Source of the DNA: Chlorobium sp.
Lineage (GTDB): Bacteria; Bacteroidota; Chlorobiia; Chlorobiales; Chlorobiaceae
DNA: 64,000 nt
Assembly: GCA_005843825.1 (NCBI GenBank)
Contig: SZXX01000027.1
Coordinates: 1-64,000 of the forward strand
Direction: 5' to 3'
Part shown: positions 8,251 to 33,295 of the stretch, in pieces
Position numbering within the stretch: position 1 is the first letter of the stretch
Layout of the letters: each line of letters starts with the position of its first letter
The notes under the pieces: model-generated
The model's input: the letters and a program-made list of their open reading frames with translations, nothing else
What the model was told of the DNA's origin: nothing
Database searches by the model: none
Program-made: the position numbers and the translations under genes

Positions 8251-8742
8251 AAATAAGTGATATAAATAAAAGGAGATAGGTCGTGGAAGACCTGAGATAT
8301 ACATCGGTAGGGGATGCGGCTGCATCCCTCGCTGGAGATGAAAAGGTTAAGCAACAGGTGGATGAAGAAATCAGGTGCAGTCAACTTGTCAATAACCTTC
8401 TTCAGCTCAGAATAGAAAAGGGCATCTCTCAAAAAGAGCTGGCAAAACGCATAGGTTGCGATCCGAGCAAAATCTCCAGAATGGAGGCTGGTAACGATTT
8501 GCAGTTGAGAATGGGTGATGTGATGCAGTACCTCTCTGCTCTCAATGTGAAAATGAATATGGTTTTTGAAGACACTTCACTCCCTGTTGCCGAGCAGATT
8601 AAACAGCATGTTTTTCTGATTCATGAAAAGCTGGAGCAACTTGTAAAACTGGCAAAGCAGGTTGATGGAGATGAAATTATCATCAATAAAATTCACGTTT
8701 TTTGCAGTGAGGTCTTATTTAATTTCCTTTCGCGGTTTGGTG
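8251..8742 (+). repeat. Copy A of ~490-bp duplicated segment (promoter region + XRE gene)
   Basis: aaataagtgatataaataaaaggagataggtcgtgg... through ...atttcctttcgcggtttgg, highly similar to 11815-12306. Confidence 0.9.
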
Positions 8743-8849
8743 ATAAGCGCTTCATGGAAAATGATTCCGTAATAAAACATGCCAGGCCCAAAACAGATTA
8801 TCCATTATTGCGCCGTAGGGGCGACCCTTGTGGTCGCTCTCCGTTGTAG
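8283..8849 (+). CDS. XRE-family HTH protein (antitoxin); C-terminus ends in REP-like sequence
   Basis: LLQLRIEKGISQKELAKRIGCDPSKISRMEAGNDLQLRMGDVMQYLSAL; GTG start; last residues RRRGDPCGRSPL encoded by gtaggggcgacccttgtggtcgc. Confidence 0.85.
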   Translation: MEDLRYTSVGDAAASLAGDEKVKQQVDEEIRCSQLVNNLLQLRIEKGISQKELAKRIGCDPSKISRMEAGNDLQLRMGDVMQYLSALNVKMNMVFEDTSLPVAEQIKQHVFLIHEKLEQLVKLAKQVDGDEIIINKIHVFCSEVLFNFLSRFGDKRFMENDSVIKHARPKTDYPLLRRRGDPCGRSPL

Positions 8850-11814: not shown

Positions 11815-12306
11815 AAATAAGTGATATAAATAAAAGAAGATAGGTCGTGGCAGGCCTTAGATTTACATCGTCAGGAGATGCGGCAGCATCACTTGCTGGA
11901 GATGAAAAGGTAAAGCTGCAGGTTGATGAAGAGATTTGTTGCAGTCAGCTTGTCAATACCCTTCTCCAACTGAGAATAGAAAAGGGCATCTCTCAAAAAG
12001 AGCTGGCAAAAAGAATAGGTTGCGATCCGAGCAAAATCTCCAGACTAGAGTCTGGTAACGACTTGCAGTTGAAAATGGGTGATGTGATGCAGTACCTCTC
12101 TGCTCTCAATGTGAAAATGAATATGGTTTTTGAAGACACTTCACTCCCTGTTGCCGAGCAGATTAAACAGGATGTTTATCTTATTCATGAAAAGCTGGAA
12201 CAACTTGTAAAACTGGCAAAGCAGGTTGATGGAGATGAGATTATCATCAATAAGATTCACGTTTTTTGCAGTGAGGTCTTATTTAATTTCCTTTCGCGGT
12301 TTGGCG
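11815..12306 (+). repeat. Copy B of ~490-bp duplicated segment
   Basis: Near-identical to 8251-8742, including untranslated leader. Confidence 0.9.
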
Positions 12307-12410
12307 ACAGCTATAAGAAGTTGTGTGTTGTTTCCGGGCATGACAATCCGGCCTTGCCGGGCTCAATGCAAATACCTTATGATTCTGATACAGGTTATCG
12401 TGGAGGTTGA
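11847..12410 (+). CDS. XRE-family HTH protein, paralog of 8283-8849, no adjacent intact toxin
   Basis: LRIEKGISQKELAKRIGCDPSKISRLESGNDLQLKMGDVMQYLSAL; diverges from copy A right after NFLSRFGD. Confidence 0.85.
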   Translation: MAGLRFTSSGDAAASLAGDEKVKLQVDEEICCSQLVNTLLQLRIEKGISQKELAKRIGCDPSKISRLESGNDLQLKMGDVMQYLSALNVKMNMVFEDTSLPVAEQIKQDVYLIHEKLEQLVKLAKQVDGDEIIINKIHVFCSEVLFNFLSRFGDSYKKLCVVSGHDNPALPGSMQIPYDSDTGYRGG

Positions 12411-16068: not shown

Positions 16069-19000
16069 ATGCAGGCATTCAAAGTTCATAAGGCTATCGT
16101 TGAGGATTACAAAAACTATCTCAACAGCTTCACTAATATCAAGGATGTCCGCATAAAAGAGAAGGTAAAGGATGCTTTTGATCAGGGGATTTTTTTACCG
16201 GAACCTCTTCTTCAGTTTAACCCATCGTTTGAGCTTGGCGAATCTCTTCAGGAGCTTCAGCTCAAAGAGCCTATCCATGATGATCTGAAAAAGATTTTCG
16301 GTTCGTATAACCTCTATTTTCATCAGGTCGAGGCCATCAAGAAAGGGGTTAATGGCAAAAGTTTTGTTGTGACGTCGGGGACGGGTTCAGGAAAATCGCT
16401 GACCTATCTGGCGACAATTTTTAACAAAATCCTGAAAAATGGTGCTTCTCAAGGTATCAAGGCGATCATTGTTTATCCGATGAATGCCTTGATTAATTCG
16501 CAGGAAGAGGAGATAAAAAAATATGAGATCAATTACCTGAAGTCATCATTGCCTGAAGAAGTTGTTATCGATGAAGCAGGAAAAAGTCTGGATGAAATTA
16601 TTGGCATCCTTAAAACAAAAACACAGCATCGGTTTCCTATCTCTTATGCGAAATATACCGGACAGGAAAATGAAGAGGCTCGTGCCAGATTAAAGGATGA
16701 TCCACCCTCAATCATTCTCACTAACTACATGATGCTTGAGCTCATCATGACCAGGAATAGTGAGCGATGGCTTCGGGAGAGCTTGAAAAAAAACCTGGAA
16801 TACCTTGTCTTTGATGAGTTGCATACCTATCGAGGCCGCCAGGGGTCAGATGTTTCAATGCTTATTCGCAGAATCAGTAAAATCGCAATCACTCCGCTTG
16901 TTTTTATCGGGACTTCAGCCACACTTGCCAGTAAAGGCTCCCCTGAGGATAAAAAAAAGGCGATCGCTCGTGTTGCTGAAAAGATATTTGGTCAACCCTT
17001 TACATCTGACCAGATCGTTAATGAAAAACTACGGTCATGCACCAATTATAAAGGGACCATACCAAAAGGCTTTGATCTGCAGGAGGCTATTTCCCAGCCA
17101 TTACAGTCATCATTGACGCCGGAATCTTTTTTCAGTAACCCCCTTGCAATCTGGCTTGAAAACAGGGTTGCTTTGAAGCGATACCCGGACGATCATATTG
17201 AGAGAGAAGATCCGCAGACGTTACAGCAGATTGCTGAAAAACTCCAGGAGGACTCGCAGGACTCTTTTGAAAACTGCAGGCAATCCATTTTCCGGTTTCT
17301 AGAATGGATGGAGCAGCTTAATGCACACAATACAGATAATCTTAAGAGACCAGAGACATATCTTCCCTTTAAAATCCACCAGTTTATTGCCCAAACCGGC
17401 AATGTATATGTTACCCTCGATGGGAGGGATGAGCGGGATATAACGCTTGAAACCAATCGTTACATTCGGAAAAGCGGGCAGGACAAGCCATTGTTTCCAG
17501 TTGTTTTCAGCCGCTATTCCGGGTACGAATTTATCTGTGTCCGCAAGGAGAGCGGAAAATTTCTGCCAAGAAATCCGGATGACCTTCCGGAAAGAATAGT
17601 TAGAGATGACCTTAAGGGGGATAAGAAAACAGGGATGCCCAAAAGGGTTCTGTCGGAAAGTGATTTTTCTGCCGGGTATCTGATTATTCCTGAAGATGGT
17701 GATGAGCTATGGAATGAAGAGCATATTGAGCTCTTGCCGGAAAGCTGGTTTAACATCAATAAATCAGGGAAATCCTTACTCAACTATTATGAACACCAGC
17801 TTCCTCAGCAAGTGTGGTTTGATGCTGATGGTACTTTTTCCTCCGAGGATGCTCTTCCCCTATCCGGCTGGTATGTTCCAGCCCGTTTATTGATTGACCC
17901 AACCTCTGGAGTTGTTTTTGATGCCAAAACAAACGAGAATACCAAGTTGATGAGGATTGGCAATGAAGGAAGAAGTACGGCAACAACGATTATTTCTTTC
18001 AGCATTATCAAAGCCCTTCAAGGAGAGCGGGTTGCGGCTGAAAGTCAGAAGCTCTTGAGTTTTACAGATAACAGGCAGGATGCATCGCTCCAGGCAGGTC
18101 ATTTCAATGACTTTATGATGCTCGGTATGATGCGCTCTGCAATTTACCATGCCCTTAAAGCAGCTCCAGAAAACAGGCTGACCATTGACACTATCAGTGA
18201 TGAGGTGTTCAGGAAGCTGAAACTCCCGGAAGAGGAGTATGCAAGAATTCCCTCTTCCGATCCCGGATGGCCTGATCCGGAAAACGAAAAGGCTATAAAA
18301 GACTATCTCCTTATCCGGATTCTCTACGACCTCAAAAGAGGGTGGAGATACAATACTCCCAATCTTGAACAGTGTGCTTTGCTGAACATCGGTTATCGCC
18401 GCTTGCAGGATTTTTCAGAACAGAACCGTTTTTTCGAAACCATTCCTTTCTTTGATGGACTTCCGGCAACGGAGAGGTATGACATTTTGCTTCAGGTACT
18501 CAATTTTTTCAGAACCTCCTATGCATTTGAATATTACAAACTGACAGACAAAAGGATTGAAACCGAAGAGCGTCTTAAAAACCGCCTTGATGAAAACAAG
18601 CTCTGGTCGCTCGAACAGGATGAAAAAATAGATACCCCCTATATTCTACTTCCCCGGTCAGTCGGTGAAACCAATTTCAGGATGTATACGGCCAGCGTTG
18701 GCCCACAGAGTAACCTTGGCAAGTATATCAGAAGATACTCAAGCAGAAAATCGATTGGTTCACTCCATGGCTCAGACCTCTCTGATGCTATTGAGGCGAT
18801 CTGTCTGCTGCTGGAACGCGGGCATTTTCTTCGATCTGAAAAGGTCCACGGCACTAAAGGTGATTGCGTCGGGTTTCGTCTGCGAATCGACAGTATCTAC
18901 TGGGAACTTGGCAATGGTCGGGATACTCTGCCTGATGAAGTCCGCACTCAAAGTTATCTTGGCGCAATTCAACAGAAACCGAATGACTTCTTCAAGAAAT

Positions 19001-21342
19001 TTTATCAGCAGGATTTCAGCTCATTTGGTCGAACATTGACCGGCAGGGAGCATACCGGTCAGTTAAACCATACCGATCGTATTGAGAGGGAAAATGGTTT
19101 CAGGAAAGGTGAAATTGCGGCATTGTTCTGTTCGCCAACCATGGAGCTTGGTATTGATATCCGAGAGCTTAATGTCGTTCATATGCGGAACGTCCCTCCA
19201 AACCCGGCCAACTACGCCCAGCGCAGCGGACGGGCAGGCAGAAGCGGGCAGGCAGCGCTCATTTTTACCTATTGCTCAAATGGCTCACCACATGACCGGA
19301 ACTATTTTAAAGAGAGCACAAAAATGGTATCCGGCTCGGTTGTACCGCCGAACATAGATTTGACAAACGAAGAGCTCGTCCGTTCCCATTTCAATGCTTA
19401 CATCCTCATGGAACTCGGGTTAAAAGATATGCGTTCTTCCGTTGATGATGTCCTCGATGTAAGGGAACAACCCACACTCCCAATAAAAGCGGAAGTAGCA
19501 CTTCATATACACCAGCAGCTTGATGCGTATGCTGCTGAGTGGGCTCTTAATTTCAGGCAGTTTATTTCGGAAATTGCAGGAATAGAAGAATCCTACTGGT
19601 ATTCAGATGATTGGTTCATCACTCATGCACGAAGTTTTTTAACGCAGTTTGATGAAAGCTTCAACAGATGGCGGGAGCTTTACCGGGGGGCTAATCATTT
19701 AATAGGTATATCTCGTGCTGTTTTGGATGACCCGTCTGTCAGCTCTGACAATCCTAAAAAACATGAGGCCAAGCGTGATGAAAATGTCGGCATGCGTCAA
19801 CGCTCTTTATTGCTGAATGATAACAAGAGAGCCTACGGTAATGATTCGGAGTTTTACATATTCCGCTATCTTGCGGCTGAAGGGTTTCTGCCGGGATATA
19901 ACTTTACCCGCCTTCCTATCCGCACTTTCCTTGGTTATCGGCATATGGACAAGGGTGAATTTATTTCACGCCCTCGCTTTGTTGCCTTAAAAGAGTTCGG
20001 ACCTAACAATCTTATTTACCATAACGGTGGCAAGTACCGCATTACGAGAATGCAGGTAATGCAAGCCGATGTCAACCAGCATGCAATCAAGATTTCCAAC
20101 CGGACGGGATACGCTTTGCTGGACAATGATGGCAAAGGAGTGAACAATGATCCAATTACGCACGAAGAGCTTAAAGGACAGGATAACGTAACTATTTACA
20201 ATAACCTGCTTGAACTTGGAGAGTCTGAAGCCCGCCCACAGGAACGAATTTCATGTGAAGAGGAGGAGCGAACCTCAACCGGCTTCGATATTGAGCAGTA
20301 CTTCTCATTTGCCAAAGGAATAGCAGGAACAAAACAGGTGACTATCACGGATGGAGGTCAACCGCTGTTACAGGTTATCTATGATCAGGCCGCCCGCTTG
20401 ATTCAGATCAATAAACGCTGGAAGATTTCGAAAAATAAAGACGATGGATTTGCCATCGGCAAAAAGTCCGGCAGATGGAAACGGGCAAAAGAACTTGAAA
20501 AGCCCGATCCTGAAGATCCGGTTATGAATGTTCGCCTCTATACTACCGATACGGCTGATATTCTCTACATCCAGCCGATCAAAGAACTTGAGCTCGATAA
20601 AGAGGGTGTGGTTTCCCTTTCTTTTGCGCTGAAACGTGCGCTTGAGCGGAAGTTTCAGATTGAAGAAGGAGAGATCGGTGTCTGGATTATGGGTAAAGGT
20701 GAAGAAAAGAACATTCTTGTCTATGAAGCCTCAGAGGGCAGCCTTGGTATTCTGTCACAGCTTATTGCAAGTCCCGCTGATCTCACGCATCTTTTTCTGG
20801 AAGCATACACGGCAATGCATTTTAATCCTGAAACCCATACGGATTGTCGTCCTGAACTTCCCAAAGCATCCTATGATGACCTGCTCTCTTATTACAATCA
20901 GCGGTACCATGAACAATTGGATCGGTTTGCCATAAAAGATGCGCTGGAACGATTGATGGACTGTACTATAGACCCTCAACAGGGAGGTAAATCACTGGAT
21001 GAGCAATACCAATATCTGTTTGATAATTACGACCTCAATTCGTCAACAGAAAAGCCTTTCATAGAATATCTTTATAAAAATGGTATTGCCTTACCAGACA
21101 AGGCACAATTCAATGTGCCGAAATGCTATGTCAGTGCTGATTTTGTCTACAAGACAGCGATAGGCTTCACTCTGGTTTTTTGTGATGGGTCGGTACACGA
21201 CAGGCAAAGTATCAAGGAAGATGACCTGCGCAAACGCCAGACTTGCAGGGACGCCGGTTATGATGTGATTGAATGGCATTACAGGGAATCGCTCGAATTA
21301 CTTATTGAGCGGCGGAAAGACATTTTCAGAAAAATACGCTGA
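16069..21342 (+). CDS. Giant DEAD/DEAH (DExH) helicase with nuclease-like (Vsr/DUF559-like) C-terminal domain; DISARM/Druantia-type defence helicase
   Basis: TSGTGSGKSLTYL (Walker A), VFDELHTYRGRQGSD (DExH), GTSATLA, SGRAGRSGQAALIFTYC (motif VI); C-term FIEYLYKNGIALPDKAQFNVPKCYVSADFVYK..FTLVFCDGSVHD..KRQTCRDAGYDVIEW. Confidence 0.92.
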   Translation: MQAFKVHKAIVEDYKNYLNSFTNIKDVRIKEKVKDAFDQGIFLPEPLLQFNPSFELGESLQELQLKEPIHDDLKKIFGSYNLYFHQVEAIKKGVNGKSFVVTSGTGSGKSLTYLATIFNKILKNGASQGIKAIIVYPMNALINSQEEEIKKYEINYLKSSLPEEVVIDEAGKSLDEIIGILKTKTQHRFPISYAKYTGQENEEARARLKDDPPSIILTNYMMLELIMTRNSERWLRESLKKNLEYLVFDELHTYRGRQGSDVSMLIRRISKIAITPLVFIGTSATLASKGSPEDKKKAIARVAEKIFGQPFTSDQIVNEKLRSCTNYKGTIPKGFDLQEAISQPLQSSLTPESFFSNPLAIWLENRVALKRYPDDHIEREDPQTLQQIAEKLQEDSQDSFENCRQSIFRFLEWMEQLNAHNTDNLKRPETYLPFKIHQFIAQTGNVYVTLDGRDERDITLETNRYIRKSGQDKPLFPVVFSRYSGYEFICVRKESGKFLPRNPDDLPERIVRDDLKGDKKTGMPKRVLSESDFSAGYLIIPEDGDELWNEEHIELLPESWFNINKSGKSLLNYYEHQLPQQVWFDADGTFSSEDALPLSGWYVPARLLIDPTSGVVFDAKTNENTKLMRIGNEGRSTATTIISFSIIKALQGERVAAESQKLLSFTDNRQDASLQAGHFNDFMMLGMMRSAIYHALKAAPENRLTIDTISDEVFRKLKLPEEEYARIPSSDPGWPDPENEKAIKDYLLIRILYDLKRGWRYNTPNLEQCALLNIGYRRLQDFSEQNRFFETIPFFDGLPATERYDILLQVLNFFRTSYAFEYYKLTDKRIETEERLKNRLDENKLWSLEQDEKIDTPYILLPRSVGETNFRMYTASVGPQSNLGKYIRRYSSRKSIGSLHGSDLSDAIEAICLLLERGHFLRSEKVHGTKGDCVGFRLRIDSIYWELGNGRDTLPDEVRTQSYLGAIQQKPNDFFKKFYQQDFSSFGRTLTGREHTGQLNHTDRIERENGFRKGEIAALFCSPTMELGIDIRELNVVHMRNVPPNPANYAQRSGRAGRSGQAALIFTYCSNGSPHDRNYFKESTKMVSGSVVPPNIDLTNEELVRSHFNAYILMELGLKDMRSSVDDVLDVREQPTLPIKAEVALHIHQQLDAYAAEWALNFRQFISEIAGIEESYWYSDDWFITHARSFLTQFDESFNRWRELYRGANHLIGISRAVLDDPSVSSDNPKKHEAKRDENVGMRQRSLLLNDNKRAYGNDSEFYIFRYLAAEGFLPGYNFTRLPIRTFLGYRHMDKGEFISRPRFVALKEFGPNNLIYHNGGKYRITRMQVMQADVNQHAIKISNRTGYALLDNDGKGVNNDPITHEELKGQDNVTIYNNLLELGESEARPQERISCEEEERTSTGFDIEQYFSFAKGIAGTKQVTITDGGQPLLQVIYDQAARLIQINKRWKISKNKDDGFAIGKKSGRWKRAKELEKPDPEDPVMNVRLYTTDTADILYIQPIKELELDKEGVVSLSFALKRALERKFQIEEGEIGVWIMGKGEEKNILVYEASEGSLGILSQLIASPADLTHLFLEAYTAMHFNPETHTDCRPELPKASYDDLLSYYNQRYHEQLDRFAIKDALERLMDCTIDPQQGGKSLDEQYQYLFDNYDLNSSTEKPFIEYLYKNGIALPDKAQFNVPKCYVSADFVYKTAIGFTLVFCDGSVHDRQSIKEDDLRKRQTCRDAGYDVIEWHYRESLELLIERRKDIFRKIR

Positions 21343-21343
21343 T

Positions 21344-24175
21344 ATGAATGTGACCGAATATAAACCCGGCAAACTGGTAACCTATCGCGACCGGGAATGG
21401 ATTGTCCTTCCATCTGCCGATAAAGAGTTGATCATGCTGAAACCTATGGGTGGATCCGATGATGAAATTACAGGAGTTTACCTGCCACTTCAAATACCAG
21501 GTGACGATATCGCTGATGCAACTTTCCCGCCTCCAGAGATAGACGATCTTGACGATTTCCAGTCAGCAAAGATGTTGTTTGATGCAACCAGGCTGTTATT
21601 TCGGAATGCCAGCGGCCCTTTCCGTTGTATGGGAAAACTGGGATTCAGGCCCCGATCGTATCAGATTGTCCCGCTTGTCATGGCTCTCAAGCAGGATACG
21701 GTCAGGTTGCTGATAGCTGACGACGTCGGTATAGGCAAAACCATCGAAGCCCTGATGATCATCAGGGAGATGCTTGAACGGGGAGAGATCAAACGGTTCG
21801 CGGTAATCTGCCTGCCGCATCTCTGCGAGCAGTGGCAGCAGGAGCTCAAGGACAAACTCGATATCGAAGCTGAAATCATTCGCACCAGTACCGCGGCAAG
21901 TCTCGATCGGAAGCTGCCGGATGACCGTTCGGTGTTTCACCATATTCCATATCAGGTTATTTCCATTGACTATGTCAAGTCTGATACCCGGATGCGAATT
22001 TTTCTCAATGACTGCCCTGAGCTTGTCATTGTCGATGAGGTACATACTTGCGCCAAACCTGCCGGAGCAACATCGAACTCCCAGCAGCAGCGCTACAGGC
22101 TGCTCCATGAGATTGCAAAAAAAGAGTTGCAACACCTTGTCCTTCTTACCGCAACCCCGCACAGCGGAAAGGATGCGGAGTTTCAGTCGATTCTCGGGCT
22201 TCTGAACCCTGAGTTTGAACGCTACGCGCTTGACCAGATTGACCAGACAAAGCGTCGCCGCATAGCCCGCCATTTTCTTCAGCGCAAACGGGAAAATATT
22301 CTCACATGGCACCGTACTTCAGGTGATGAAGAAACCCCCTTTCCCAAGCGTGATCCTAAGGAGATCGCCTATAAACTTTCCGAGCGATACGAGCAGTTCT
22401 ATCGAGACATTCTCGAATTTGCCCGGGGAATAAGCAAAGAGGGTTCAAAGCATCGTTCGTCGAGAATCCGCTACTGGGCTGCACTGGCCCTGCTTCGCGG
22501 AGTGATGTCAAGCCCTGCTGCAGCAGTAGAGATGCTGCAGAACCGGCAGCAGAGAAAACTTGATCAGGATGAGCGAGAGCTTTTCGCAGAACAGGAGAAA
22601 AATCCGCTCATTGAAACTCTCAGTGATGAAAATGATACCGGCAATACGGAACTGCTTGATAATGCTGAGCTGAACAGCAACGAGATAGCGGCACTCTCGC
22701 TGCTTTGCGTCAAAGCTGAGCGATTGTCCGGAATTGAGCATGACTGGAAAGCAAAGCAGGCTATTGAATTTGTTAAAACCTGGCTTAAAGAGGGTTTTAA
22801 CCCGATTGTCTTTTGCCGCTATATTGCAACAGCAAATTATATCGGCTCCCTGCTCAAAGCGGCATTGCCGGAATCGGTTGATGTGCAGGTTGTTACTTCT
22901 GAACTCGCCGATGAACAGCGCCGCGAAAAAATCAACCTGATGGCAGACTCCACTCAGCGGGTAATGGTTGCAACTGACTGCCTGAGTGAAGGCATTAACT
23001 TGCAGCAGCTCTTTACCGCTGTGCTGCATTATGATCTGCCCTGGAACCCGAACCGTATCGAACAGCGGGAAGGCCGTGTTGACCGATACGGTCAGCGAGC
23101 GAAAGTGGTTAAAACCCTTTTGCTTTGGGGTGATGACAATCCGATTGACCGTATTGTTCTGAACATTCTTATCCGCAAAGTCCGGGATATCCAGAAGACG
23201 ACCGGTGTCAGTATCTCTCTTGGTGACGATACAACCTCCATCATGGATGCGGTCATCAGGGATGTTTTGCTGGAAACCGAAACGATCAGGAATGGCCAGC
23301 AGATGACCCTCTTTGCCGACGAGTTGTTTACCAACGAACTTGAAGTTGCCCGAAAAAAAGCTGAAAACCTCCGTTCAATCTTTGCCCATGAAAGTATTGA
23401 CAGTGATGCTATCAATCAAAGCCTTGATGAAATTGACGAGGCCATCGGTGACTCTCACTCGGTTGAATCCTTTGTGCTTGCGGCGGTCGTGCACCTTGGA
23501 GGTTCTGTTCAGCGTGACAAAACCGGCTATCTGCTCACGCTGACCAATTTGCCTGAACATCTTAAAATTCATTTTTCATCCACATCATCAAAGCCGGTGA
23601 GAGTAAGCTTTGCATCACCGACCCCGGCGGGTTATCGCTATATCGGCAGAAACCATCTTTTCGTTGAACAATTGAGCCAGTTTCTGCTCTCACTTGCCTT
23701 TGAACCAAGGCAGGGTTACAAACGGATTGCACGAGCGGCGGTCATTCAAACCGATAGTGTGTCGATCAAAACAACCCTTGTGCAGTTCCGTGTTCGAAAT
23801 GTCATCAGGGAAGTGAGCGGAAAACGGGAGGTGATTTCTGAAGAGATCTCTCTCTGGGGATACCGCGGCAGCGATGTGGCTTCCGGGGTACTTCCATCTG
23901 ATGAAGCAAAAAAGCTGCTGCTTGAAGCCACGTCAAAGGCAAATCTTTCACTCGAAATGCAGCAGAACATTTTCGAAACAGAGCAGATCGTGTTTCATGC
24001 AAAAGCCGGACAATTCAAGGATGAAGCTGAACTAAGGGCAGAACACCTTGTTGAGGCACACGGAAGGTTCAAGGAGCTGGTTGGAGGCAAACGCTATGAA
24101 GCGGTTTATCCGGTATTGCCTCCGGATATCATAGGCGTCTACGTGCTGACCCCGGTTCCCCAAACTCTTTTTTAA
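21344..24175 (+). CDS. SNF2/helicase-related protein, DrmD-like
   Basis: YKPGKLVTYRDREWIVLPSADKELIMLKPMGGSDDEITGVYLP; RSYQIVPLVMALKQDTVRLLIADDVGIGKTIEALMI; VDEVH; WNPNRIEQREGRVDRYGQ. Confidence 0.92.
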   Translation: MNVTEYKPGKLVTYRDREWIVLPSADKELIMLKPMGGSDDEITGVYLPLQIPGDDIADATFPPPEIDDLDDFQSAKMLFDATRLLFRNASGPFRCMGKLGFRPRSYQIVPLVMALKQDTVRLLIADDVGIGKTIEALMIIREMLERGEIKRFAVICLPHLCEQWQQELKDKLDIEAEIIRTSTAASLDRKLPDDRSVFHHIPYQVISIDYVKSDTRMRIFLNDCPELVIVDEVHTCAKPAGATSNSQQQRYRLLHEIAKKELQHLVLLTATPHSGKDAEFQSILGLLNPEFERYALDQIDQTKRRRIARHFLQRKRENILTWHRTSGDEETPFPKRDPKEIAYKLSERYEQFYRDILEFARGISKEGSKHRSSRIRYWAALALLRGVMSSPAAAVEMLQNRQQRKLDQDERELFAEQEKNPLIETLSDENDTGNTELLDNAELNSNEIAALSLLCVKAERLSGIEHDWKAKQAIEFVKTWLKEGFNPIVFCRYIATANYIGSLLKAALPESVDVQVVTSELADEQRREKINLMADSTQRVMVATDCLSEGINLQQLFTAVLHYDLPWNPNRIEQREGRVDRYGQRAKVVKTLLLWGDDNPIDRIVLNILIRKVRDIQKTTGVSISLGDDTTSIMDAVIRDVLLETETIRNGQQMTLFADELFTNELEVARKKAENLRSIFAHESIDSDAINQSLDEIDEAIGDSHSVESFVLAAVVHLGGSVQRDKTGYLLTLTNLPEHLKIHFSSTSSKPVRVSFASPTPAGYRYIGRNHLFVEQLSQFLLSLAFEPRQGYKRIARAAVIQTDSVSIKTTLVQFRVRNVIREVSGKREVISEEISLWGYRGSDVASGVLPSDEAKKLLLEATSKANLSLEMQQNIFETEQIVFHAKAGQFKDEAELRAEHLVEAHGRFKELVGGKRYEAVYPVLPPDIIGVYVLTPVPQTLF

Positions 24176-24214: not shown

Positions 24215-27200
24215 ATGGCATTCAGCAGTATTATCATACAAGGCAATATCATCTCATCCGAGATCATCAACAAGATCCGCAGCGATGATGAAAAATTCCA
24301 GACACCGTCGGATTTTGCGCTCGACCGCAAGACTGCTGTTCGTGATGAAATCGGTGTGGCCTGGAACGCTGCAAAAGCCCACTACATGGCGTTTACGCTC
24401 CGCGCGGCACGTCTCCATGATGGCGACAGCGGCGCAAGTGAAACCCGCAACTCATGGATGATCCCGTTGCTTCGCACTCTTGGCTACGATGTTGAAAAAG
24501 CACAGGCTGTCATCCACCCCGATACCGGAAAGAGCTATGCCATAAGCCACATTGCGGCCAACCTGAACGGTTTTCCCATCCACATCATGGGGTTGCGCGA
24601 CGATCTCGATCGACGCAGGGAAACGGGTGGTCCCCGTCTTGGGCCTCATGCACTGGTTCAGGAGTATCTGAACAATACCGAGCACACATACGCTCTGGTA
24701 ACGAACGGGCGCTTTCTTCGCCTGCTCAGGGATGCCACCCGGCTTGTGAGGCTGAGCTATCTGGAGTTCAACCTCGAAAAGATGATGGAAGAGGATCTCT
24801 ATGCCGATTTTGCCATTCTTTTCCGCTTGCTTCATGCCACCCGGATGCCGAAAAGTCAGGAAGAGTCCGAGAACTCGCCGATTGAATACTACCACCAGAA
24901 ATCTCTCGAAGCAGGGTCATGTATTCGAAAAAACCTAAGCAAAGCAGTTGAAAAATCCATACTCGATCTTGCCAATGGTTTTCTCCGTCACCCCGGCAAT
25001 GAAGAGTTGCGGCAGCGGATTGCACAAGGCATCATGAATCCGGCTGACTTTTATGCGGAGCAGCTCCAGCTTATCTACCGTATCCTCTTTCTCATCGTCA
25101 TTGAAGAGCGTAACCTTGTCTATGCGGAAACAAAGGATGAGGAGCTTCAGCGTCAACGCAAGCTCTACTACGACTACTACAGTATAGAACGCCTGCGTAA
25201 ACTGGCGGCAAAGCTCCACTACGTTGATGGCCGAAAGCACGACCTCTGGCAGGGGCTCAAAGCTACATTCCGCCTTTTCGAAGATGGCTTCTACGGTGAG
25301 AGGCTTGGCATCAAGCCACTTGGCTCCGGTATCTTCAGTGCAGTTGCTCTCGGTCAACTCCCGACACTCTCTCTCAGCAACGAAGCGCTTCTGAAGGTGA
25401 TCCGCCGCCTCACCTTTTTCGAGAACGAACAGAAGCAACAGGTGCGGGTCAACTACTCTGACCTCGACGTCGAAGAGTTTGGTTCGGTCTATGAAGGGCT
25501 TCTTGAATATGACGCCGAATTCAGGGAGATCAACGGCACAACCCACTTCACCTTTAAAGAGGGCAAGGGGCGTGGTGAATCAGGCGCTCACTATACCCCC
25601 GAAGAGCTGGTCAAGCCGCTCATCAAATACTCGCTCGACTTTGTCATCGAAGAGAAGCTCAAGGCACCCAACCCCGAAGCCGCGCTCCTCTCTATAAGGG
25701 TGTGTGACGTAGCCTGCGGCAGTGGCCACATCCTCCTCTCCGCCGCCCGAAAGATCGCCATTGAACTGGCAAGGGTGCGTACCAGAGAAGAGCAGCCCTC
25801 ACCAACCGCCATGCGCCATGCCTTGCGTGACGTCATCCGAACATGCATCTACGGGGTCGATAAAAACCCCCTCGCCGTTAACCTCTGCAAGGTGGCGCTC
25901 TGGCTCGAAGCCCATAACCCCGGCGAACCACTCAACTTTCTCGACCATCACATCAAATGCGGCGACGCCATTGTCGGACTTGCCCATCAGGAGGAGCTTT
26001 TCCGGGGCATAGCTGACGAAGCCTTCAAGGCACTTCCGGGTGACGACAAACTGATCGCCTCTGCTCTGGCCAAACGCAACAAGATAGAGCGCAAACAGCG
26101 GGAAGCCGAAACCGGTTCGCTCGGGTTGCAGTTGATGCTCGGAGCAAACAACGAAGTGATGCAGAAAATGGAGCTGCTGATGGGGCAGTTACGAACTTTC
26201 AACGCTATGCCGGAGGATACACCGGAAGAGATTGAGGGCAAAGCAAAAGCCTATCGCAACCTCCAGAACGGAAAAATCCTTCATACTTTGAAGCTCCTTG
26301 CCGACATACAGGTGATGCAGTTCTTTGTGCCAAAAACCAATGAGCATAAAGAGGCGTTCGTGACCGACAAAACCTATTTCAGTTACCTTCGTGGCGGTCA
26401 GGCTGTTCCGTTTGCTTTTGAAGTTGATGTTTTTAACCAAGCTGATTCTCATCGATTCTTTCACTGGTTTCTTGAGTTTCCGGAGGTGCTTATAAATGGT
26501 GGATTTGATTGTCTTTTAGGAAATCCACCATATTTAGGGGGGACATATATCGCAACTAATTTTGGTCATAATTATTTTGAATCATTAAAGTATTTATATG
26601 GCGGAACAAAAGGACGATGTGATTTGATTGCGTATTTTTTTAGAAGAATATTCGATCTTGTTAAAAGTAAAGGTTTTTTTTCTGTTATCAGCACAAATAC
26701 AATTTCTCAGGGCGAATCCGCAGAGGGGTCGTTAAAGATTATTATTGATACTGGTGGTATGATAAACTATGCCAAAACAAATTCTGTTTGGCCAGGAGAT
26801 GCTACTGTTACAATCCATGTAATAAGTGTCATTAAAAACCGACTTGCAAGCGGTAAAATATTAAATGGAGTAAGCGTTGATAATATTAATTACTTGCTCA
26901 AAAATGATGATTTTGACTTAAAGACATTTGATTTGAAAAAAAGCTCCCGTTTATCATTCAAAGGCACATCTGTTTATGGCGACGGATTTATTGTTGATGC
27001 AAAAGAAAAAGACAATCTTATTAATGCGGATTCTTTAAATGCAGATGTAATTTATCCATACTTAGGAGGAAGAGAGGTAAATGAAAATCTTGAATCTATT
27101 GCACATCGATATGTAATAAATTTTTTTGATTGGGAAAAAGAGAAGGCGATGGAATATGTACTACCATTTCAAATAGTTGAAAATAATGTAAGAGCCTACA

Positions 27201-28093
27201 GGGAGAATATTATAAGAAATAGTCATCAAATACATGAGTACGACTATTGGAAGTTTTGGGATAAAAGACTTGATCATTATTTGGAGATTAAAGACTTTGA
27301 TCAGGTTTTAGTCACTGCAAGAGTTAACAAAGTACTCGCGTTTGTTTTTGTTTCAAACAAACAGGTGTTTTCTGACTCACTTGTTGTTTTCAAAGACAAC
27401 TCCTATTCGCTTTTTTCTGTTCTACAATCTAATATACACTTCAGTTGGGTTGTAAATTTTTTTACAACTCAAGGGTCAACTCCTGTTTACATAGAATCCA
27501 AAGTGCTAAATAATTATCCTTTTCCTGAAGATATTTTTAATAATCAAGGCAGTGATATTTGTACAATAGGAGAAAAATATCATCAATACAGAAAACGCAT
27601 AACATTGTTAATGCAGCTTGGCCTCACAAAAACCTATAATCTTTTCCACGCCCAACTGCTGCGCCCGATAACACCGGATGAAGAACAACTTGACGACAAA
27701 ACCCTTCAAAAACAACTCGGAAAAGATGCCGCACACCTGCGCAAACACCTCGCAAAAACTCCCCGAACCATCACCTTTAACGAAGCTGTCAACGGCATCC
27801 AGAAACTTCGTAATCTCCATCTCCAGATGGACAACGCTGTCCTCGAAGCATACGGATGGTCAGACATCAACCTCCGCCACGACTTCTACGAAGTAGAATA
27901 CCTCCCCGAAAATGACCGCATCCGCTATACCATCCACCCTGACGCTCGTCGCGAAATCCTCAAGCGGCTCCTTGAGCTGAATCACAATATTCACGATCAG
28001 GAAGTTGAGGAGGGGCTGTGGGAGAAGAAGGTGAAAAGTAAAGAAAAAAATATCGGATCTGATAAAGACAGCCAAATTCGTATGAATATGTAA
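24215..28093 (+). CDS. Eco57I-type adenine-specific DNA methyltransferase (DrmMI/PglX-like)
   Basis: Motif I VCDVACGSGHILLSAARK; motif IV LLGNPPYLGGTYI; long N-terminal region, C-terminal TRD-like region. Confidence 0.93.
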   Translation: MAFSSIIIQGNIISSEIINKIRSDDEKFQTPSDFALDRKTAVRDEIGVAWNAAKAHYMAFTLRAARLHDGDSGASETRNSWMIPLLRTLGYDVEKAQAVIHPDTGKSYAISHIAANLNGFPIHIMGLRDDLDRRRETGGPRLGPHALVQEYLNNTEHTYALVTNGRFLRLLRDATRLVRLSYLEFNLEKMMEEDLYADFAILFRLLHATRMPKSQEESENSPIEYYHQKSLEAGSCIRKNLSKAVEKSILDLANGFLRHPGNEELRQRIAQGIMNPADFYAEQLQLIYRILFLIVIEERNLVYAETKDEELQRQRKLYYDYYSIERLRKLAAKLHYVDGRKHDLWQGLKATFRLFEDGFYGERLGIKPLGSGIFSAVALGQLPTLSLSNEALLKVIRRLTFFENEQKQQVRVNYSDLDVEEFGSVYEGLLEYDAEFREINGTTHFTFKEGKGRGESGAHYTPEELVKPLIKYSLDFVIEEKLKAPNPEAALLSIRVCDVACGSGHILLSAARKIAIELARVRTREEQPSPTAMRHALRDVIRTCIYGVDKNPLAVNLCKVALWLEAHNPGEPLNFLDHHIKCGDAIVGLAHQEELFRGIADEAFKALPGDDKLIASALAKRNKIERKQREAETGSLGLQLMLGANNEVMQKMELLMGQLRTFNAMPEDTPEEIEGKAKAYRNLQNGKILHTLKLLADIQVMQFFVPKTNEHKEAFVTDKTYFSYLRGGQAVPFAFEVDVFNQADSHRFFHWFLEFPEVLINGGFDCLLGNPPYLGGTYIATNFGHNYFESLKYLYGGTKGRCDLIAYFFRRIFDLVKSKGFFSVISTNTISQGESAEGSLKIIIDTGGMINYAKTNSVWPGDATVTIHVISVIKNRLASGKILNGVSVDNINYLLKNDDFDLKTFDLKKSSRLSFKGTSVYGDGFIVDAKEKDNLINADSLNADVIYPYLGGREVNENLESIAHRYVINFFDWEKEKAMEYVLPFQIVENNVRAYRENIIRNSHQIHEYDYWKFWDKRLDHYLEIKDFDQVLVTARVNKVLAFVFVSNKQVFSDSLVVFKDNSYSLFSVLQSNIHFSWVVNFFTTQGSTPVYIESKVLNNYPFPEDIFNNQGSDICTIGEKYHQYRKRITLLMQLGLTKTYNLFHAQLLRPITPDEEQLDDKTLQKQLGKDAAHLRKHLAKTPRTITFNEAVNGIQKLRNLHLQMDNAVLEAYGWSDINLRHDFYEVEYLPENDRIRYTIHPDARREILKRLLELNHNIHDQEVEEGLWEKKVKSKEKNIGSDKDSQIRMNM

Positions 28094-28184: not shown

Positions 28185-29018
28185 ATGATAAATCAACAAA
28201 TTGATGTTGCTTTAGGAAATAATTTACCAGAATCATCATGTTATGAGCGTAGTATTGTTGCGTTCTTAGATATTCTTGGGTTTAAGAACAAGGTTATGCA
28301 AAGTGAGAAAGATAACGGAGTTATCAAGATATTGGTGGACTCATTGAAGATATGTTCCGGGATTTCTACTGGAGGCAAAAAAGTCACCCAGGGAGAAGGT
28401 GTTGAAAGAAAAATCGATTTTCAAAGTCGATTTTTTTCAGATTCAGTAGTATTTTTTATAAAAGATTCCCCGGCCGATATTTCTCATTTATTTTTGGTGA
28501 TACGATATTTGCAAGATGAGTTATGGAAGAAAGGGTTATGTGTTAGAGGTGCAATTACTATCGGAAATATGTATTGGCCATTGAGAGAAAATGGAGAAAA
28601 AGATATTACATTAGGTAATGCTTTAATAGAGGCGCATGAGCTCGAGTCGACTTGTGCAATCTATCCTAGGATTGTATTGAGTGATAAAGCTTATGAGTAT
28701 ATTAGTGAATCAAATTGTGTTGCATATCCGTTCGGATTATTAGGGAAGTTAAAAGACTATATTTTAAAAGATGAAGCAGGGATTTATTATATGGATTTAC
28801 TTCATAAAAATATTAATCGTTCATCAGGAGAGTTTTTGGCAGAATATGAAGATGATTTTTCGATTAGATGGGAATTTGAAGACGCATCAAATCTCCCTAT
28901 AGTTATAGCACTAGTAGAAAAAATTGTTGATGATAATATTGCGAATAGCGGTCAATATATAAGGTATAAATATCAATGGCTCGAAAAATATACTAAGAAG
29001 TCAAAGAATAAAATCTAG
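28185..29018 (+). CDS. Class III nucleotidyl-cyclase-like protein
   Basis: SIVAFLDILGFKNKV ... RFFSDSVVFF ... VRGAITIG ... LGNALIEAHELES follows class III cyclase domain order with both metal-binding Asp positions. Confidence 0.7.
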   Translation: MINQQIDVALGNNLPESSCYERSIVAFLDILGFKNKVMQSEKDNGVIKILVDSLKICSGISTGGKKVTQGEGVERKIDFQSRFFSDSVVFFIKDSPADISHLFLVIRYLQDELWKKGLCVRGAITIGNMYWPLRENGEKDITLGNALIEAHELESTCAIYPRIVLSDKAYEYISESNCVAYPFGLLGKLKDYILKDEAGIYYMDLLHKNINRSSGEFLAEYEDDFSIRWEFEDASNLPIVIALVEKIVDDNIANSGQYIRYKYQWLEKYTKKSKNKI

Positions 29019-29067
29019 ATTAAATAGATTTATAATGTTGAGTTTTTCTAATTTATTTTAAAAAATT

Positions 29068-29871
29068 ATGGGTGTTAATATAGAAAAAGCTATAAAAGCG
29101 ATTAATGAGCGTATGAATAGTGCGAATCATTCATTCATGAATTCTTTTTACAATAAACAGCGCATCGATCCTGCTCTTGATTATGACGAAGATAAGGATA
29201 TAACTGAATATTATGCAGAGAGCGCTTTTGTGGCGGTGCTCATTTTACTCGAACATTTGAATCTTACAGAAACATATAAGAATGTATCGATATTATTTGA
29301 ATTAGCTAAGAAAAATGGATTTTCCGATAGTTCTATGGGGATTGATGACCCATATATAGACTCTATAGAAAAGTTAAGAATAATTGTTAATGGGATATCA
29401 AGTTTATATGGTTTAGACGATTCAGCCACTTCTGAGATGCATGACATAAAAGCGATCATTAAACAGGCGCTTTATGTAATTTGTGATATAGCCCTTTTCA
29501 AAACTCAACCAAAAAACGAGGCTGATGTACATGATCGAATAGAATCGATACTCAAATGCTATTTCTCCGATCTCAAAAGGAAACCTTCTCTAACAAAGCC
29601 AATCAAGAATTTTGAACCAGATTCTGGCATTCCTTCAACACAAACACTCATTGAATATAAGTTTGTAAATTCGAAAAAAGACGCAAAGCTCGTTGTTGAC
29701 CAGATTCTTGCTGATACAAATGGTTACAAATCATCCAAATGGAAAAACTTGCTTTTTGTTATATATGAAACACATAGAGTTCTTCCAGAAAAGGATTGGA
29801 AGGCACTTTTGCATGAATGCGAACTTAGAGATAATTACGATATAGTTGTTTTGCCTGGAGATGCAAGTTGA
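29068..29871 (+). CDS. Predicted PD-(D/E)XK nuclease (REase_AHJR-like C-terminal domain)
   Basis: C-term PDSGIPSTQTLIEYKFVNSKKDAKLVVDQILADTNGYKSSKWKNLLFVIYETHR contains D-x(n)-E-x-K; helical N-terminal half. Confidence 0.65.
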   Translation: MGVNIEKAIKAINERMNSANHSFMNSFYNKQRIDPALDYDEDKDITEYYAESAFVAVLILLEHLNLTETYKNVSILFELAKKNGFSDSSMGIDDPYIDSIEKLRIIVNGISSLYGLDDSATSEMHDIKAIIKQALYVICDIALFKTQPKNEADVHDRIESILKCYFSDLKRKPSLTKPIKNFEPDSGIPSTQTLIEYKFVNSKKDAKLVVDQILADTNGYKSSKWKNLLFVIYETHRVLPEKDWKALLHECELRDNYDIVVLPGDAS

Positions 29872-29960: not shown

Positions 29961-31751
29961 ATGCAGAAATACCAAGTCAACCAGTATAACATCGACAATA
30001 TTGTCAACTGGGTTAAATCGGGTTAAATTGCTATTCCTGAAATCCAGCGCCCATTTGTCTGGGATAGCACCAAAGTCAGGGACCTTATGGATAGCCTTTA
30101 CCAAGGTTACCCTGTAGGGTATATCATCTCTTGGAGAAACCCGGATGTCAGGCTTAAGGATGGAACGCTCTCAATGGGTAAGAAGGTATTGATTGATGGA
30201 CAACAACGCGTCACAGCCCTTACAACCGCTCTGGTTGGTCAGCCTGTTATAGATGACTCCTACAATAAAGTCATCATTAAAATTGCTTTTCATCCTATTG
30301 AAGAACGTTTTGAGGTACTTAACCCTGCAATTCAAAAAGACAAGGCGTGGGTTCATGATATCGCTGAAATCATCAAACCTGAGTTCTCTACCCTGCAGTT
30401 TGTAAGAACCTATCAGGACAAGAACCCGGAAGCCAGCGAAAGCGCCTTGGAACGTAATATTCAGCGCCTCAAGTCAATTGTGCAACGCCCTATAGGAATG
30501 ATCGAGCTGAACCATGATCTGGAAATCGAGACAGTCACCGAGATTTTCATACGCATCAATTCCAAGGGAGTTGTTCTCAGTCAAGCTGATTTTGCAATGT
30601 CCAAGATTGCAGCCAATGAAACCTATGGCGGCAATGTGTTGCGCAAAGCTATTGACTACTTCTGTCACATGGCGGTAAAGCCCGAATTTTATACACATAT
30701 CTCCGAAAACGACAAGGAGTTCGTCAAAACCGACTACTTCAGCAAAATGAAGTGGATTCGTGAAGAAAACGACGACCTCTATGATCCGGACTATAATGAT
30801 ATGCTTCGAGTAGCTTTTTGTTACAAATTTAAGCGGGGTAAACTCAGTGACCTCGTGAGTCTTCTTTCCGGTCGTAATTTTGAAACCCGCACCTACGAGG
30901 ATGCTATTGCTGAAGCCTCTTTTATGCGGCTCAGCGAAGCAGTGATAACCTTCATGAACGAGACACTTTTCAAGCGGTTCGTCATGATTATAAAATCTGC
31001 CGGATTTGTTGATTCGAAATTGATGCGTTCACAGAACGCTCTGAATTTCGCTTATGTCCTTTTTCTGCATCTGAAAGAAATCAGGATGGAAGATGCGTTG
31101 ATAGAGCGCTATGTCCGGAGATGGTTTGTCATGAGCATTCTTCTTGGTCGCTATTCCGGCTCCCCGGAATCTAAATTTGACAGCGACATCAGAGAGATCA
31201 ATGAATCAGGTATTGAGCGTGTCCTCCAAGATGTAGAAACTGCATACTTGAGCGATTCGTTTTGGGATTCAGGTTTGACCCAGCGTCTGACGACATCAGG
31301 CAGTAGCGCGCCCGCGCTTCATGTCTTTTGGGCTGCTCAGGCAAAGTTCAATGACAAAGGGTTCCTGTCGCGAGACATAAGTGTCAAGGAGATGATCGAA
31401 CATAGGGGGGATATTCATCACATTTTTCCTCGGCAGTATTTGAAGGAAAATGGTATTAGCCAGAGTCAGTATAATCAGGTGGCTAACTATGTCTATGTCC
31501 AGCAAGAGATTAATATTAGGGTAGGAAAACGCTCCCCGGCAGAATATATCGGACAAATCCGTGAGCAATGTCAAAGTGGTAAACTTGCTTTTGGCGGTAT
31601 CGATACTCTTCCAGAGTTCGAAGCAAATCTTGAGGCCAACTGCATCCCTGGTAACATCTATCAGATGACGTTAAAAGATTACGAGGATTTTCTCGGGGCT
31701 CGAAGAATGTTGATGGCTCAGAAAATCAAAAAATTTTATCAAGGACTGTAA
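29961..31751 (+). pseudogene. DUF262 (GmrSD-like) protein gene with one in-frame premature stop (TAA at 30024-30026)
   Basis: [61 protein letters not shown]...[11 protein letters not shown]...[12 protein letters not shown] 30087-31751 is only the in-frame remainder. Confidence 0.88.
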
Positions 31752-32143: not shown

Positions 32144-33295
32144 ATGAGCAGCACTTTGAACAACATTGAATTCCTTAGCCCCCGGCTCGTTGGTGAACGA
32201 TTTTCGGGACATGCCATTCCTCTTGAAGTTCTTCGTGATTTGGCTGTACTGGAAGAGATGGTCGTTGAAACTGCCAAATGGGAGTACATGCATGAACACC
32301 CTGACAGAAAACGCATTCCTCGTGGTTTTACGAATGGGGTTTCGCTTAAGCTGACAGGAATTGAAGAGGGCAGTGCTATCCCAAGAATAGCCTTGTTCTT
32401 TACACTTACAGGAACAAGTATGGCTCTTTTTCCTTCTGACAATGCACATTACTTCAACAAAGCAAAAGATTCGATAGTTAAAGCTGTTAATGCTGCTGAA
32501 CAAAACCGGGATATCAAGGAGTATCTGCCTGAAAATCTTCTTTGCTATTTTGATCGGATAGGCAGAAGTCTTAGAGATGGTGAGTCTCTTGAGTTAAATC
32601 CTGCTGATGAAAATCAACCGGCGCGACTTAACAAAGGAACGCGCAGAAAATTACTGCTTGCCTCCTCCAACGTATTGGAGCTTACCGAGGAGATTACGCT
32701 GAGAGGATCAATACCTGCTGCTGATCAGGCGAAAATGACGTTTGATTTGCACGTTATCAGTGGGCCTACAGTAAGTGCGCCTATTTCACCGCAACATTGT
32801 GAGATCGTGAAAGAGGCATTCATGCGTTATGGTAATGGAGGTATAGTCATGCTGCAGGGAATAGGAAGGTTTAATCGCAATAATCGACTTCAAAGCATCG
32901 ATTCTGTCGATCACATCAGCTTGCTGGAGAATAACGATGTTTTGGTTCAGTTGGATGAACTTCGTTCTCTGGAAAATGGCTGGCTTGACGGTGAAGGTAT
33001 TGCTCCATGTAAAGAAGGCTTGGACTGGCTTGCAGGATATTTTGAAGCTTGTTATCCTGAAGATTTGCCTGTGCCGCGCATTTATCCGACACCGGAAGGG
33101 GGTGTGCAAATTGAATGGGCCTTGAATGCTTATGAAATATCCCTTGCTGTCAATTTAAATAACCACAGGGGAGACTTTCATGCTTTGAATATGAGAAATG
33201 ATGATGAAATCATAAAATCTTTTGATTTTAACAAACCTGATGATTGTGTCTTGCTTAATCAGGAAATCAAGGCTATATCGGAGGCCGAAGTATGA
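32144..33295 (+). CDS. Hypothetical protein, first gene of overlapping pair
   Basis: 383-aa ORF MSSTLNNIEFLSPRLVGERFSGHAIPLEVLRDLAVLEEMVVETAKW...; ATGA overlap with next gene. Confidence 0.8.
   Translation: MSSTLNNIEFLSPRLVGERFSGHAIPLEVLRDLAVLEEMVVETAKWEYMHEHPDRKRIPRGFTNGVSLKLTGIEEGSAIPRIALFFTLTGTSMALFPSDNAHYFNKAKDSIVKAVNAAEQNRDIKEYLPENLLCYFDRIGRSLRDGESLELNPADENQPARLNKGTRRKLLLASSNVLELTEEITLRGSIPAADQAKMTFDLHVISGPTVSAPISPQHCEIVKEAFMRYGNGGIVMLQGIGRFNRNNRLQSIDSVDHISLLENNDVLVQLDELRSLENGWLDGEGIAPCKEGLDWLAGYFEACYPEDLPVPRIYPTPEGGVQIEWALNAYEISLAVNLNNHRGDFHALNMRNDDEIIKSFDFNKPDDCVLLNQEIKAISEAEV

Follow-up and report, generated by a model that had tools for sequence, protein, structure and literature searches.

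Nucleotide signalling is a central theme in bacterial immunity, and the known cyclase-based defences have been found by way of intact cyclases with a paired effector. Two described systems bear on the locus considered here. In Pycsar, the cyclase PycC has a class III fold with two metal-binding Asp residues, which in EaPycC are D102 and D146 (PMC11224242), and it is accompanied by an adjacent receptor that carries a cyclic-nucleotide-binding domain together with a TIR or transmembrane effector. ARMADA Type I, as described in PMC12458937, consists of three genes and includes a C-terminal Vsr nuclease of its own. We analysed a window of 64,000 nucleotides from a Chlorobium genome (assembly of 2.55 Mb, 57 contigs) in which two neighbouring genes, referred to here as gene 1 and gene 2, had been predicted to form a Pycsar-like two-gene system. 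Gene 1 shares the class III fold and the two metal Asp with PycC, but no receptor of the Pycsar kind lies beside it, and neither gene belongs to ARMADA Type I as described.

Genomic context of the gene pair

Gene 1 (28185..29018, + strand; 277 aa) encodes an orphan of the class III nucleotidyl-cyclase fold and gene 2 (29068..29871, + strand; 267 aa) a protein with a helical N-terminal half and a C-terminal nuclease domain. They are co-directional and 49 bases apart, the open reading frames falling exactly where the original prediction, which gave the spacing as about 50 bp, had placed them. Both had also been described as more AT-rich than their flanks, and this holds: G+C is 0.326 in gene 1 and 0.341 in gene 2, compared with 0.460 in the upstream methylase gene, 0.440 in the downstream GmrSD gene and 0.460 in the window, with the caveat that the methylase gene is itself AT-rich over its final 1.9 kb (0.378). 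Since both proteins have relatives elsewhere, neither gene is a chance open reading frame. A promoter scan of the region gave sites no more numerous than in shuffles.

The three genes upstream of gene 1 fit ARMADA Type I by type and order (PMC12458937). They encode a YprA/DruE-like helicase (16069..21342, + strand; Pfam and PADLOC), a BrxHII/DrmD/DpdE-like SNF2 helicase (21269..24175, + strand; profile scans) and a PglX/DrmMI-like methyltransferase (24215..28093, + strand; Pfam and PADLOC), although Pfam reported no Vsr-type nuclease on the YprA protein of the window at E<=1. Downstream lies a type IV restriction gene with a GmrSD_N (DUF262) domain (29961..31751, + strand; Pfam), so that the placement of the pair in a defence island is borne out by profile scans on both sides. 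The GmrSD gene has an in-frame stop at codon 22, and a near-identical gene in another locus of the genus (L131) is uninterrupted. Beyond it, positions 32144-33295 encode a protein matching the PADLOC candidate defence family PDC-M32A (E 2.6e-155), and elsewhere in the window two HTH genes about 3 kb apart (8283-8849 and 11847-12410) are 92% identical over 154 residues.

The start of gene 1 lies about 90 bp 3' of the PglX-like gene, and the spacing is identical in a second locus (L001), which could be taken to mean that both genes belong to the ARMADA Type I-like system as additional subunits, gene 1 sensing an NTP and gene 2 contributing a further nuclease. We consider this decidedly improbable. 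ARMADA Type I is described with three genes and a nuclease of its own, both gene families occur far from ARMADA, and the slot behind PglX is occupied by unrelated genes at six further PglX loci of the genus. In one of these (G227) the YprA, BrxHII and PglX proteins are kept at 90, 94 and 82% identity and the slot holds a 382-aa protein that belongs to no known Pfam family; the same protein fills the slot in G378, where a GmrSD gene follows farther on (97.5% identical over 364 residues). The slot encodes a deaminase in G040 and yet other genes in G287, G259 and G307, where PglX is more distant. When the DNA from 28.0 to 30.0 kb was compared with 60 other genomes of the genus, the coding DNA of the cassette was found in none of them, and only short pieces of the flanks were matched. 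One other bin carries a gene 1 that is 90% identical and occupies the same place behind PglX, but the contig breaks off within this gene, so that a gene 2 next to it may be present or absent.

A class III cyclase fold and an altered active site in gene 1

Scans of gene 1 against Pfam, NCBIfam and PADLOC gave no family match, PF00211 (Guanylate_cyc) was matched by none of 16 family members at E<=1, and literature searches returned no paper on the family. All 42 members scanned match phrog_23933 (gene 1 with E 1.8e-24), a phage protein family whose function is unassigned. The relationship to class III cyclases, as originally predicted, is nevertheless supported by structure modelling, Foldseek and hhalign together. 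An AlphaFold model built on 42 sequences (pLDDT 81.3, pTM 0.83) was compared with the PDB, and each of the best 50 Foldseek matches is a class III cyclase or a close homologue, 3r5g leading the list (E 7.3e-7); the query-normalised TM-scores are modest, at 0.37-0.45, and the cyclase core does not extend to the C-terminal part of the protein. When the sequences of solved structures were searched with a profile built from 16 relatives, class III adenylyl cyclases took the top seven positions (best E 0.0025), a deeper profile scoring weaker. With hhalign, the gene-1 profile aligned over residues 17-177 with 18 genuine cyclases drawn from the same phylum (E 3.6e-6 and 2.8e-5), compared with E 0.17 for a control using the gene-2 profile, and it also cross-matches a genuine PF00211 cyclase gene (G004:C33).

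The motifs on which the cyclase reading was first based are all present in the sequence. Profile alignment places the first metal-site Asp, D29, in the segment D29-I-L-G-F33 (28269..28283, + strand) and the second, D86, in S85-D86-S87 (28437..28445, + strand); both align with the metal Asp of class III cyclases and are invariant in all 53 non-redundant members of the family. The fold, the order of the motifs, R121 and the Gly positions likewise align with class III cyclases. Unlike these enzymes, gene 1 lacks the transition-state Asn and Arg and has an extra C-terminal helical tail bearing the conserved K262. The segment G144-E154 (GNALIEAHELE; 28614..28646, + strand) is the counterpart of the class III helix G-D-x-V-N-x-A-x-R-L-E, and here the Asn and Arg positions are I148 and E152. 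Across the family the Asn is kept in one member of 53 and the Arg in three, compared with 17/18 and 18/18 in true cyclases, and the region instead has the signature G-P-A-x-[IV]-x-A-Y-x-x-E. From the alignments, it is plausible that D29 and D86 hold a metal-NTP, but canonical cyclisation is doubtful: given that the Asn and Arg are replaced in almost the whole family, gene 1 probably makes no cyclic nucleotides by the canonical route.

It may be that gene 1 is instead an active non-canonical cyclase, or another nucleotidyl-transferring enzyme, whose effectors are encoded elsewhere. The invariance of the metal Asp is consistent with this, and R121 and K262, conserved in 94% and 87% of the family, could supply charge. 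We regard it as somewhat unlikely, however, given the loss of the Asn and Arg and the lack of any widely recurrent effector gene near gene-1 relatives. The second-best PDB fold match also speaks against this reading: the protein (6yii, a class III adenylyl cyclase-like protein from Pseudomonas aeruginosa) shares the cyclase-like fold and is ATP-binding according to its entry title; it is 16% identical to gene 1 and, at 473 residues, has a different architecture.

Gene 2 is a predicted PD-(D/E)XK nuclease

The sole Pfam match of gene 2 is the DpnII-MboI family (PF18742; residues 149-262, E 6.9e-13, 48.8 bits against a curated cut-off of 27), and PADLOC reports Aga_Helical-REase (E 5.7e-12). Both cover the C-terminal nuclease domain and neither extends to the N-terminal half; no Argonaute gene was seen adjoining gene 2. 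The catalytic pattern is PD...EYK, in which E196-Y197-K198 is invariant and D185 is either D or E among four aligned sequences. A single-sequence fold of the protein reached a pLDDT of 40 and was not used. The prediction of a PD-(D/E)XK nuclease thus stands as regards the domain, but its assignment to the REase_AHJR type was rejected, as no such Pfam match was found at E<=1.

Full-length relatives of gene 2 are found on plasmids of Methylocystis, Bosea and Agrobacterium, two of them near restriction, Shedu or Abi genes; a search of phage GenBank with gene 2 gave no match. An alternative raised at the outset, that homologues of gene 2 would be tied to the upstream methylase, is at odds with the varied surroundings in which these relatives occur.

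No recurring linkage of genes 1 and 2 in the loci searched

In the sample searched, the two families do not recur as a pair. No relative of gene 2 was found in any of 71 gene-1 loci by a six-frame search of 774 kb, and no relative of gene 1 in any of eight gene-2-type loci, of which three are full-length matches and the others partial or domain-level. The lack of such linkage had been named among the observations that would refute the Pycsar-like reading. A comparison with PycC also counts against that reading: PycC models matched none of the 42 gene-1 family members and all 18 true cyclases used as a positive control, and the identification of gene 1 as PycC was rejected on this basis. Taken together with the loss of the class III Asn and Arg from gene 1, these data do not support reading the two genes as a Pycsar-like pair.

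One could still envisage a pair specific to this lineage, in which infection would lead gene 1 to make a nucleotide signal, to be sensed by the helical part of gene 2, which would then activate the nuclease. The adjacency, shared direction and matching composition of the two genes fit such an arrangement, as do the cyclase fold of gene 1 with both metal Asp in place and the helical region ahead of the nuclease domain of gene 2. We think it improbable, because the pairing does not recur, because gene 1 has neither the Asn and Arg nor a PycC match, and because Pfam finds no known ligand-binding domain in gene 2, nor any cyclic-nucleotide-binding, TIR or transmembrane family. With no recurring linkage between the families in the loci searched, genes 1 and 2 look like separate cargo and not like one signalling system.

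Distribution and neighbours of the gene-1 family

Among 399 genomes sampled from the phylum, 30 gave a match to the gene-1 family at E<=0.001, and 24 of these reach E<=1e-10; some of the weakest matches are large proteins, of which at least one is a genuine PF00211 cyclase. A further 71 plasmids and 36 viral contigs encode relatives. Viral contigs searched with gene 1 alone (P0001) or with profile A2 gave no match, nor did phage GenBank searched with gene 1 and with a prophage relative. The family is present as single occurrences in genomes, plasmids and prophages, sometimes adjoining defence genes. Neighbours of this type include ZorD, a PDC-M62 ATPase/HNH pair, type I and II methylases, DUF1016 and GmrSD; they were picked by eye in chosen loci, without a background rate. 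Plasmid replication genes and AbiE also occur as neighbours. In one locus (L072:7615-8439), the gene-1 relative adjoining ZorD is broken in two by an in-frame stop.

Of the neighbours that recur over divergent gene-1 loci, most are phage tail, integrase/recombinase or other mobile-element genes. The recurrent partner with the closest spacing is a ParA-like ATPase on three prophage contigs (L093, L100 and L106), with gaps of -3, 1 and -3 bp; that it overlaps or abuts gene-1 relatives diverging to about 28% identity suggests a coupled pair. E. coli searched with the ParA-linked relatives gave no match. In four genomes of the genus (L067, L068, L038 and L069), a small open reading frame with the motif MANENxGVFSDLF lies on the same strand 3' of the gene-1 relative, at gaps of 66-167 bp.

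Discussion

The reading that we favour, and which we consider probable, is that genes 1 and 2 are independent cargo, each acting as a stand-alone gene, and that they fill a variable slot with an ARMADA Type I-like operon on one side and a GmrSD-type gene on the other. Against their independence, the two genes are adjacent and co-directional, with a short gap and similar composition, and so they may have arrived jointly and be co-transcribed. As independent cargo, gene 2 would most likely be a solo PD-(D/E)XK nuclease predicted to cleave DNA. Gene 1 would be a solo protein of the class III nucleotidyl-cyclase fold, whose two invariant Asp most likely grip a metal-NTP, and which is more likely to be an NTP-binding sensor, or to act on the NTP by variant chemistry, than to be a canonical maker of cyclic nucleotides. 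That its family recurs on plasmids, in prophages and in defence islands would fit a role as a single-gene anti-phage or exclusion factor.

The original prediction was correct in its reading of the gene-1 motifs and nearly so in that of the nuclease. More tentatively, the phrog_23933 family as a whole might be an unnamed, class III cyclase-like branch whose members, carried by mobile elements, each provide immunity or exclusion as a single gene, with the NTP held by the Asp pair acting as a trigger or as the substrate for a non-canonical signal. What stays of interest is a cyclase-fold family with altered catalytic residues and no assigned function. Unassigned in Pfam, NCBIfam and PADLOC, lacking a fixed partner and with its active site altered, this family would escape searches built on intact cyclases with a paired effector, and yet it is widespread in the genomes, plasmids and viral contigs sampled here.
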